Under the pieces are notes generated by a model. That model saw only the letters and a program-made list of their open reading frames with translations. It was not told the DNA's origin and ran no database searches. Positions 52,743 to 55,031 of a DNA stretch of 64,000 bases are shown one piece after another. The DNA comes from Dasania sp. GY-MA-18 (GTDB lineage Bacteria > Pseudomonadota > Gammaproteobacteria > Pseudomonadales > Dasaniaceae), in assembly GCF_024734385.1 (NCBI RefSeq), contig NZ_JANHAP010000013.1, forward strand, positions 1 to 64,000, written 5' to 3'. Each line of letters opens with the position of its first letter. The stretch's first letter is position 1. Made by a program: the position numbers and the translations under genes.

Positions 52743-55031
52743 TTGAGCAAAACGGTAGTCGACAATAAGGCAGCAAACACGGTGGCAGCCGCCACCATCG
52801 CAAGCAAAATAGTGCCGTGGAAAATCTGGGCCAGAGCGGGCTTAGATGTACTAAGCTGTCTAGCCGAAATCCCCTCTTGGTTGCGTTTGTCTCACGAAAT
52901 TCACCATCGCAACCGCATAGGCAGTGACTTTGTGGGGGTTAATATCGCCACCTCTAGTGATCCCGCCTGTGATGATAAAGTACTGGATTATTTACAAGAT
53001 TTATCCATACGCCAAGTGCGTATGGACTACAGCTACTGCTCGCAGCAGGGTGATGCTCAGCGTTTATTAAACCGCGTCTTGGCTGAAGGCTTGGAGGTGA
53101 TGCTGGATTTATTTCCGCCCAAAGAAGAGGCCGCAGCCCTGCGCGATGATGAGCAGGCACAGCAGCGCTGGCGCGAATTTTTACAGCAGGTGTTTACTGA
53201 CTACGCCGGGCAGGTCAGTATTTTTGAAATAGGCAGCACACCTAACCGCGGCAAGTGGTCGGGCTTTGACGGCATTAGTTATTTACACGCTTGGCAAATT
53301 GCCACCGAGGTGGCGCAGGGCTTTAACCTTACTTTGGCAGGCCCCAATATTTCAGATTTTGAGCCGCTGTATAACTTCGCCTATTTAAAAGCCATGAAGC
53401 GGGTAGACTCAGTGCCCGTGATACACAGCGATAACTTATTTGTTGAACGGGTAGTACAGCCCGAGGCTTACGACCACCGCGTGGCGGGCAATTGGGCCAC
53501 CCGTAAGCTCAACCTTAATCTGATTAAAAAAGCGCGTATTATCGCCGAGATAGGCCACCAAGAAGGTTGTGAGAAAACTTATTGCACCTATAAGTGCTGG
53601 ACCAGAAAACGCCTTAGCCGTTGGACCCTAGACCCCGAACAAAAAAATGCCGATTACTTAGTGCGCTATTTGATTATTGCTGCCGCCAGTGGCGCTTTGG
53701 ATAGGGTGTATTGGGGGCCATTAATTTGCAATCGCGATGGCTTAGTTGACTGTGGCGATAGCAGCTATCCCTATGTAGACAATGTTAGTTTTTATAAAGA
53801 GGTACGCGGGCAAGTCGCAGACTTTAAACCCACTAAAGCCTATACCGCCTTTAAGTATGTATCGACTTTATTGCGTCATATTACCTGTGTGCAAGGTGTG
53901 AGCGCCGATAACGGCATTAATCATTTTATTTTTGAAACTGAGCAGGGTGGCGAAGTGCATGCGCTGTGGTGTTTGGATCGTAGTGCCCTAGCGTTGACTG
54001 ATATATACAGCAAAGCCCAGTTACAGAGTGCTAGTTTTAGAACCGTTTACGGAACCGCGCCCGTACAACCGCCGCATATGGCTACAGAGCAGCCGCTACT
54101 AATAGAGTGGCCACAACAGCAAAGCCTGCGACCCAGCACCGACGATATACGTACTTTAGATGACACCCTAAGTAGCACGGTGGTCTATCATGCCCACCCC
54201 GGTTTACAGTCGGTGTCGGTGAATACGCCGCAGTGGCTGGGGGTGGTAGCGGTAGCTGATGGCCAAGACGCTGAGGCTACGGTGGAGGCTTATATGCCTG
54301 CGTCAATGTTAGCAAAACCGGAAATTTCAGTATTGCGCGACACCCGCAATCGCCTGTGGAATATACAGCTAGATGAGCAGGCTGAAGAAATACAAACGGT
54401 TAAATTAAATCGCGCTAAAGGTATTAAAAAATTCACCTACCGCTTTATGCCCAGTAAGGGGAAAAGGCATTGGAATAATGCTACCGAAATGCTGCGCAGA
54501 GGTATTAATACGCCGCAGCCTCTGGCTTTTTTTGAGCGTCATAGTAACGCGGGCATAGAAGATAACTACTATGTGTGCCGTTTTGTCCCTAATGCTTTTT
54601 CAGCGCGCGATGTGTTTCATGCCTTTAATAGCGGTGAACAAAGTTATAAGGGCTTGGATAAAGAGGCTTTTTATACTGAGATAGCGGGCTTTGTGGCTAA
54701 AATGCATAGCTGCAATATTATTCATAGAGATTTATCATCGGGTAATTTGATGATGACTAAAGATGAGCAGGGCTTAATATTTTACGCGATAGATATAGGC
54801 AGGGCAGTCATAGATAAAAGCAAAGTGATAACTAATATGCAGCGTGGGATAGATTTAAAGCGCATTTGCTATAAATTAAACTGGGTCGATCGCGAGTTTT
54901 TTATAACGGCTTATCAGCGCCACGCCGGTAAAGAAATAAAATATTGGAAGTCTATGCTGTGGTCTTATGATGCTAAGCAAGGCTTTAAGAAAACACTTAA
55001 AGCGAAATTAAAACGCAAAAAACGAGTTTAA
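52743..55031 (+). CDS. Glycosidase-like barrel fused to a WaaP/Kdo-kinase-like domain
   Basis: A 762-residue two-domain protein. Residues about 65-480 look like a TIM-barrel glycoside hydrolase: SDFVGVNIATS, IRQVRMDYSY, then FEIGSTPNRGKWSG (E162-R169...) and ARIIAEIGHQEG (E269), LAGPNISDF, and a jelly-roll-like end. Residues about 575-750 are a lipopolysaccharide-kinase fold: NATEMLRRGINTPQPLAF, catalytic IIHRDLSSGNLMM (H661-R662-D663, N near 668) and metal-binding AIDIGR (D684). At the position of the acid/base NEP motif the barrel has STP (165-167), so the hydrolase part may be inactive or different. The start is TTG. A very basic tail (KAKLKRKKRV) ends the protein. It stands 84 bases after rapA. 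Confidence 0.7.
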   Translation: MSKTVVDNKAANTVAAATIASKIVPWKIWARAGLDVLSCLAEIPSWLRLSHEIHHRNRIGSDFVGVNIATSSDPACDDKVLDYLQDLSIRQVRMDYSYCSQQGDAQRLLNRVLAEGLEVMLDLFPPKEEAAALRDDEQAQQRWREFLQQVFTDYAGQVSIFEIGSTPNRGKWSGFDGISYLHAWQIATEVAQGFNLTLAGPNISDFEPLYNFAYLKAMKRVDSVPVIHSDNLFVERVVQPEAYDHRVAGNWATRKLNLNLIKKARIIAEIGHQEGCEKTYCTYKCWTRKRLSRWTLDPEQKNADYLVRYLIIAAASGALDRVYWGPLICNRDGLVDCGDSSYPYVDNVSFYKEVRGQVADFKPTKAYTAFKYVSTLLRHITCVQGVSADNGINHFIFETEQGGEVHALWCLDRSALALTDIYSKAQLQSASFRTVYGTAPVQPPHMATEQPLLIEWPQQQSLRPSTDDIRTLDDTLSSTVVYHAHPGLQSVSVNTPQWLGVVAVADGQDAEATVEAYMPASMLAKPEISVLRDTRNRLWNIQLDEQAEEIQTVKLNRAKGIKKFTYRFMPSKGKRHWNNATEMLRRGINTPQPLAFFERHSNAGIEDNYYVCRFVPNAFSARDVFHAFNSGEQSYKGLDKEAFYTEIAGFVAKMHSCNIIHRDLSSGNLMMTKDEQGLIFYAIDIGRAVIDKSKVITNMQRGIDLKRICYKLNWVDREFFITAYQRHAGKEIKYWKSMLWSYDAKQGFKKTLKAKLKRKKRV

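Follow-up and report, generated by a model that had tools for sequence, protein, structure and literature searches.

A catalytically depleted glycosidase barrel fused to a Kdo/WaaP-family kinase domain in Dasania, with a candidate role in phosphorylating lipopolysaccharide-core sugars

Phosphates on the core of lipopolysaccharide (LPS) help to hold the outer membrane together, and to our knowledge little is known about how the core kinases choose their acceptor. Among the closest described proteins is WaaP of Pseudomonas, for which published work reports that changes at K51, H161, D163, D188, Y165, H168, and R191 abolished growth (PMC6147952). Another is PslG, which two papers describe as an intracellular protein that is linked to the inner membrane and required for Psl synthesis (PMC9075953, PMC6813494), with E165 and E276 as the catalytic residues needed for hydrolysis (PMC6813494). 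Here we analysed a gene of Dasania sp. GY-MA-18 within a window of 64,000 nucleotides (the whole stretch of DNA under analysis); its product joins a barrel modelled as PslG-like to a kinase domain of the Kdo/WaaP family.

The gene, its barrel fold, and its relatives

The gene lies at 52743–55031 on the + strand, the strand of all its features given below, and forms one intact open reading frame of 762 codons, as a sequence-only reading of this DNA had claimed; it starts with TTG, and its own genome carries one full-length copy. It is flanked by rapA on one side and an RF-1-domain gene on the other. The earlier statement that it follows rapA outside any waa or lps cluster agrees with our count of no LPS-panel gene within 8.5 kb (panel described below). 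In G001, a genome of the same genus, an 85% identical orthologue has the same neighbours; by eye, this order is absent from the other neighbour lists, and rapA and the RF-1-domain gene were rejected as functional partners on that ground. A frameshift or misassembly between two genes, the error that might have produced an apparent fusion, is ruled out by 24 proteins with the same barrel-first order, the window protein among them, each of which is a single open frame (that of G826 reaches the end of its contig within the kinase). A viral origin was also rejected: viral contigs scanned with the barrel profile (one degenerate peptide pattern) yielded 39 pattern matches and no relative. Within residues 1–77, the 18-mer with the highest hydrophobic moment spans residues 26–43, with about 3% of the protein's 18-mers scoring higher, and residues 24–50 (52812–52892) are predicted from this moment to form an amphipathic helix, a possible membrane contact site. 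There is no hydrophobic stretch at the N terminus; the most hydrophobic 19-mer of the protein (mean 0.50) begins at residue 310.

We modelled the window protein together with four homologues (L020–L023) using AlphaFold2 (mean pLDDT 72.5, pTM 0.64). With the full model, Foldseek ranked PslG best (5bx9, E 1.0e-13) and WaaP tenth (6dfl, E 1.3e-7), and VIA matched a GH39 protein (5jvk, Z 27.0) and PslG (5bx9, Z 26.7, rmsd 3.1 over 349 residues, model residues 51–457). On this model, the first half of the protein is a clan-A TIM barrel of the PslG/GH39 type; the structure search that had been proposed as a check on the suggested TIM-barrel glycoside-hydrolase-like domain has therefore borne it out. 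The barrel itself comprises residues 58–380 (52914–53882), and the remainder of the PslG-like region, residues 381–457 (53883–54113), is mostly strands in the model. Pfam detected no glycosidase family in the protein at E up to 1, and over residues 1–560 gave only a chance-level CybS match at 470–491 (E 0.2).

When whole genomes were searched with barrel profiles, matches appeared in 12 of 369 genomes at class level, in 31 of 390 at order level, and in 3 of 398 across the phylum, all three within the same class, with some genomes recurring between searches; four contigs from MAGs were added, with the titles Pseudomonadaceae, Pseudomonadales, Cellvibrionaceae, and Chromatiales. Three ARRANGEMENTS of barrel and kinase occur, namely a barrel-first fusion, a kinase-first fusion, and separate genes. 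By domain order, 24 open reading frames are barrel–kinase, 11 are kinase–barrel, and 12 contain the barrel only, so that the fusion does co-occur in related genomes, which had been suggested as a second check, alongside kinase-first and split forms. Four barrel-only genes lie near a kinase from the same subfamily: those of G850 and G801 overlap it, that of G874 is 22 bases away, and in G974 two genes lie between. Six others (G165, G198, G281, G310, G379, and G405) have no adjoining kinase, and that of G021 is cut by the contig end. The protein of G114 (L046:9278–10912) reads as a barrel preceded by a remnant of a kinase tail, with no kinase core, and is adjoined by two Wzy_C-type genes; either the kinase half has been lost in nature, or the contig end accounts for its absence. 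The stand-alone barrels of L047, L048, L050, and L052 (about 360 aa) adjoin one recurring gene in 4 of 6 genomes, which we take to be TrmB.

Trees of 46 barrels and 40 kinases were built with IQ-TREE (LG+G4, ultrafast bootstrap, midpoint rooting). The G021 fragment, cut at its contig end, was omitted from the 47 barrels found, and the kinase set leaves out four repeated rows of separate kinases, the weak neighbouring kinases of G910 (28.3 bits) and L023 (12.4 bits), and further Kdo-like kinases of the searched genomes, except that of G009, which was included. Both trees give the same groups. The kinase-first major group, which includes the G114 barrel, has a support of 100 in both, and the barrel-first group has a support of 84 in the barrel tree and 97 in the kinase tree; the trees disagree, in part with weak support, on how the groups are joined and on the branching order within the barrel-first group. 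Genus g15 contains both split (G801, G850) and fused (G913, G894) forms, and its fusions nest among split pairs, with G874 joining G894 and G913 at 86 and 98. Because the domain orders are opposite and the groups are the same in both trees, barrel and kinase have fused at least twice, and the g15 pair makes a third event likely; three fusions are therefore probable, unless the genes have also split again.

Catalytic positions of the barrel

As an intact reference, we used the GH39-type protein of L136, which is encoded by a genome from the same class and carries FEIWNEPN and WNTES motifs. It came from a GH39 Pfam search covering 143 genomes of the class, of which 2 matched at E ≤ 0.001 and 1 exceeded the cut-off. 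Alignment of the barrel profile with this protein by hhalign (probability 96.9%, E 1.3e-10) placed T166 (53238–53240) on E214, the acid/base position, and Y283 (53589–53591) on E317, the nucleophile position. All 46 barrels compared have T or A at position 166. Position 283 is Y in 18, S in 3, A in 2, and N in 1 of the 24 barrel-first fusions, and E in each of the 22 other barrels. The profile match to PslG itself was weak (E 0.24); it put a T-E of PslG, with the Glu numbered E276 by offset, on the Y283 column. Neither of its two stretches covers the PslG acid/base Glu, and two further profile searches of the PDB returned no PslG. According to these alignments, all 46 barrels are without the acid/base Glu, and the nucleophile is additionally lost only in the barrel-first branch. 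Since Glu stands at neither position in any of the 24 barrel-first fusions, the usual retaining mechanism is ruled out for the window protein.

The sequence-only reading had noted that residues E162–R169 read EIGSTPNR, which is correct, and had proposed that the acid/base Glu is missing while E162 and E269 remain. The missing acid/base residue stands, with T166 in its place, and all 24 barrel-first fusions retain E162; E269 does not hold up as a surviving catalytic Glu, being E in only 2 of the 24 fusions, with the nucleophile position falling on Y283.

At least 45 of the 46 barrels agree at thirteen positions, including N168, R169, W172, D205, F206, R236, K263, W286, and W324, which argues that a site has been kept in the barrel. 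Between the window gene and its G001 orthologue, pN is 0.051 in the barrel and 0.115 in the kinase and dN/dS is 0.045 vs 0.114, ratios that are rough given the high synonymous differences (0.58–0.68 per site). The barrel is not decaying, and by this comparison it is under stronger purifying selection than the kinase. The kept site could also belong to an enzyme of another kind. Myrosinase uses an activated glycosyl donor and needs no acid catalyst; the kinase-first and stand-alone forms, which all have E at the nucleophile position and never E at the acid/base position, might likewise transfer or cleave such a donor, and the barrel-first forms would later have lost the nucleophile or changed chemistry. 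The shared residues fit this explanation, but the window's own branch has Glu at neither place, and we regard it as improbable.

The kinase domain and its genomic context

The Kdo/WaaP-family kinase domain spans residues 528–762 (54324–55028). Kdo (PF06293) is the single Pfam family above its cut-off in the window protein (residues 563–708, 34 bits vs 21.3), and it is also above the cut-off in the kinase-first protein of G014 (53.5 bits) and in the separate kinases of G850, G801, G874, and G974. Together with the WaaP structure match over the C-terminal third, this upholds the WaaP/Kdo-kinase-like domain of the sequence-only reading, whose intact HRD and DIG were found where it had placed them. 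K554 (54402–54404) is the ATP-binding lysine by position; the catalytic loop H661-R662-D663 (54723–54731) is followed by N668; and D684-I685-G686-R687 (54792–54803) contains the metal-binding Asp and an Arg equivalent to R191 of WaaP. Eight residues, K554, K572, R575, H655, D663, N668, D684, and R687, are invariant in all 40 kinase domains.

One catalytic feature departs from this pattern. In the WaaP profile alignment, E78 of helix C falls on H576, H168 on N668, and R191 on R687, and by the WaaP and PRPK alignments there is no Glu at the helix-C position. This absence, along with a partner domain that is itself a dead enzyme, would suit a pseudokinase through which the fusion regulates glycan synthesis without phosphotransfer. 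However, K554, D663, N668, and D684 are invariant throughout the set, and the WaaP study reports that E78A still supported growth, with EDTA sensitivity moved 128-fold, and that K51A, D163A, and D188N gave no growth (PMC6147952). A pseudokinase is therefore very unlikely in our judgement, and kinase activity despite H576 is probable, albeit not certain, from the residues kept.

Modelled alone, the kinase domain reached pLDDT 75.6 and pTM 0.76. With this model, Foldseek ranked WaaP best (6dfl, E 1.8e-9) and PRPK next (4.6e-9), VIA gave PRPK Z 17.5, Bud32 Z 16.0, and WaaP Z 14.9 (rmsd 5.7, 210 residues), and a profile search listed PRPK (E 2.3e-12) before WaaP (1.3e-11). None of the NCBIfam equivalog cut-offs for KdkA (27.3 of 142 bits), RfaP (21.1 of 170), or Bud32 (24.6 of 125) was reached. 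The VIA and profile rankings speak for a kinase that acts on a protein or a small molecule, as Bud32/PRPK, RIO, and aminoglycoside kinases do, with the barrel only a scaffold, and so does the position of most barrel-first loci outside LPS clusters. We consider this unlikely, given that Kdo is the sole Pfam family past its cut-off, that the Bud32 score is far too low, and that most kinase-first and split relatives stand in an LPS context. A defence-system kinase was rejected, as the PADLOC matches (best 1.2e-6, PD-T4-6) span fewer than 60 residues around the catalytic loop and mean only 'kinase'.

LPS context was scored by phmmer with a panel of LPS proteins, counting matches of 50 bits or more no farther than 8.5 kb away; MsbA was counted only from 300 bits, as weaker matches were taken to be ordinary ABC transporters. 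LPS genes were found at 7 of 11 kinase-first loci (G014, G1018, G1048, G846, G869, G910, and G998) and 3 of 4 split loci (G801, G850, and G974); they encode a Wzy_C ligase, MsbA, LptF/LptG, a lipid A acyltransferase, GT4, GT9, or HldE-like proteins, often with Stealth, YrbL, or phosphatase genes also present. No panel gene lay within 8.5 kb at the other 4 kinase-first loci, at one split locus, or at the six other stand-alone barrels. Barrel-first loci have LPS genes in 3 of 24 cases: in G417 and G058 the gene lies among genes for GT9 heptosyltransferases, Kdo kinases, and what we take to be HldE-like and GmhA-like proteins, and in G008 a GT9 gene is 4.5 kb away. Pfam confirms GT9, SIS, and Kdo in G417 and GT9 in G008. 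At the remaining 21 barrel-first loci, including that of the window, the panel detected no LPS gene within 8.5 kb. The panel was drawn partly from the G014, G417, and G008 loci, which match by construction; when these sources are removed, the counts become 6 of 10 for kinase-first and 1 of 22 for barrel-first. Some context stretches are shorter than 8.5 kb per side (e.g., L110, L021, L046, L123, and L135; 6 kb for L020–L023), so that an absence at these loci gives a lower bound on the LPS genes nearby.

In each of the 15 genomes searched, LptF/LptG have a single location; in 5 of these genomes it is no more than about 8 kb from the barrel (about 7.1 kb in G014, 6.2 in G998, 6.3 in G846, 4.4 in G910, and 1.0 in G869); the distance in G1048 is 36 kb. 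We estimate that chance would bring fewer than 0.1 of the 15 this close in genomes of 2.3–7.2 Mb. Four of the five belong to one family (f6), and they therefore represent two independent lineages, not five.

Several further features of these loci were observed. In f6 (L024, L122, L123, L126, and L127), the kinase-barrel gene recurs with a DSP-type phosphatase, Stealth, a YrbL-like kinase, MsbA, and LptF/LptG in varying combination, and the phosphatases beside the LPS kinases look like matched activities. The G417 heptose locus encodes a 745-residue protein (L042:13851–16085) in which three stretches of a single chain match Kdo kinases, and a similar gene is present in G058. In family f41 (L111, L112, L113, L115, L117, and L121), the barrel-first fusions adjoin a protein of about 1,320 aa, which is DUF1631-GGDEF-EAL by Pfam in L111, the sole one scanned, and at several of these loci nearby genes presumably serve F420 biosynthesis. 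Sulfatase-family proteins by Pfam lie directly upstream of the G757 fusion (L076:7325–9322) and directly downstream of the G1018 fusion (L124:10368–12338), and are perhaps phosphoethanolamine or phosphoglycerol transferases.

In the Dasania genome, three other Kdo-family kinases lie together on contig C15, among genes that we read as an LPS core biosynthesis locus. The window gene lies elsewhere, next to rapA and the RF-1-domain gene, and its own link to LPS would therefore come through its relatives. In one barrel-first relative, G826, a carbamoyltransferase gene (Pfam 217.6 bits) directly precedes the fusion; wapO of the Pseudomonas LPS core cluster is described as a putative carbamoyltransferase (PMC8005017).

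Proposed function and known systems

We propose, with a probability of about one-half, that the protein is a cytoplasmic kinase of an LPS-core or similar glycolipid sugar, whose pseudo-glycosidase module binds an oligosaccharide and positions or gates the phosphorylation. Because the kinase-first and split relatives are mostly in LPS core, O-antigen, or transport loci, LPS core or a like glycolipid is the probable substrate. The kinase would phosphorylate an LPS-core sugar, or one in a similar surface glycolipid, before the acceptor leaves the inner face of the inner membrane, where the N-terminal amphipathic stretch would suit membrane contact. PslG offers a precedent for a glycosidase-type protein with an intracellular role in making polysaccharide (PMC9075953). 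The barrel, unable to cleave glycosidic bonds in the usual way, keeps its fold and several invariant residues, both aromatic and charged; by binding the oligosaccharide, it could let the kinase meet the right acceptor or act only at a given state of the chain. The repeated fusions point to a strong functional link between barrel and kinase before any experiment, and as the pairing was made more than once and in both orders, it is probable that the kinase's glycan substrate is held or checked by the dead barrel. The Pfam Kdo match, the invariant kinase residues, the conservation of the barrel, the three arrangements, and the LPS loci of relatives favour this proposal. Against it count the 21 barrel-first loci without LPS genes, along with 4 kinase-first, 1 split, and 6 other stand-alone loci, the three Kdo kinases already on C15, H576 at the helix-C Glu position, the low KdkA and RfaP scores, and the closer VIA matches to PRPK/Bud32.

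A more specific and distinctly tentative version is a checkpoint on core phosphorylation, built repeatedly as neighbouring genes, kinase–barrel, and barrel–kinase, in which a pseudo-glycosidase reader might recognise or measure the growing core or O-antigen acceptor and license a dedicated sugar kinase. If the dead glycosidase is such a reading module, it would offer a concrete, testable way to match core phosphorylation to glycan structure, and it would add a clear example from bacteria of a glycosidase fold put to use in recognition, one whose living relatives retain the nucleophile.

In open PMC papers we found no description of the combination of barrel and LPS kinase, which agrees with the earlier suggestion of an undescribed system; new here is the occurrence of the same two domains in the opposite order (11 proteins) and as separate genes. 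The window protein resembles WaaP/RfaP, the LPS heptose(I) kinase, in its kinase fold, ATP-binding Lys, catalytic Asp, metal-binding Asp with the following Arg, and Pfam family; it differs in having a 500-residue half with the pseudo-glycosidase before the kinase, whereas WaaP has no such partner domain, and in having Asn668 for WaaP H168 and His576 for the helix-C Glu. It resembles PslG, the GH39 endoglycosidase of Psl exopolysaccharide (5bx9, 9g17), in the barrel and following strands (residues 51–457) and, presumably, in being an intracellular glycosidase-type protein of surface polysaccharide synthesis; it differs in having T166 and Y283 for E165 and E276, and PslG, as far as we know, is without a kinase half. 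The atypical kinases PRPK and Bud32 have the closest kinase fold by VIA Z, yet the NCBIfam Bud32 score is far under its cut-off. Klotho-type pseudo-glycosidases, which were among the fold-search matches, are glycosidase barrels that serve binding rather than cutting; they are animal cell-surface proteins of another GH family, with no kinase in the chain.
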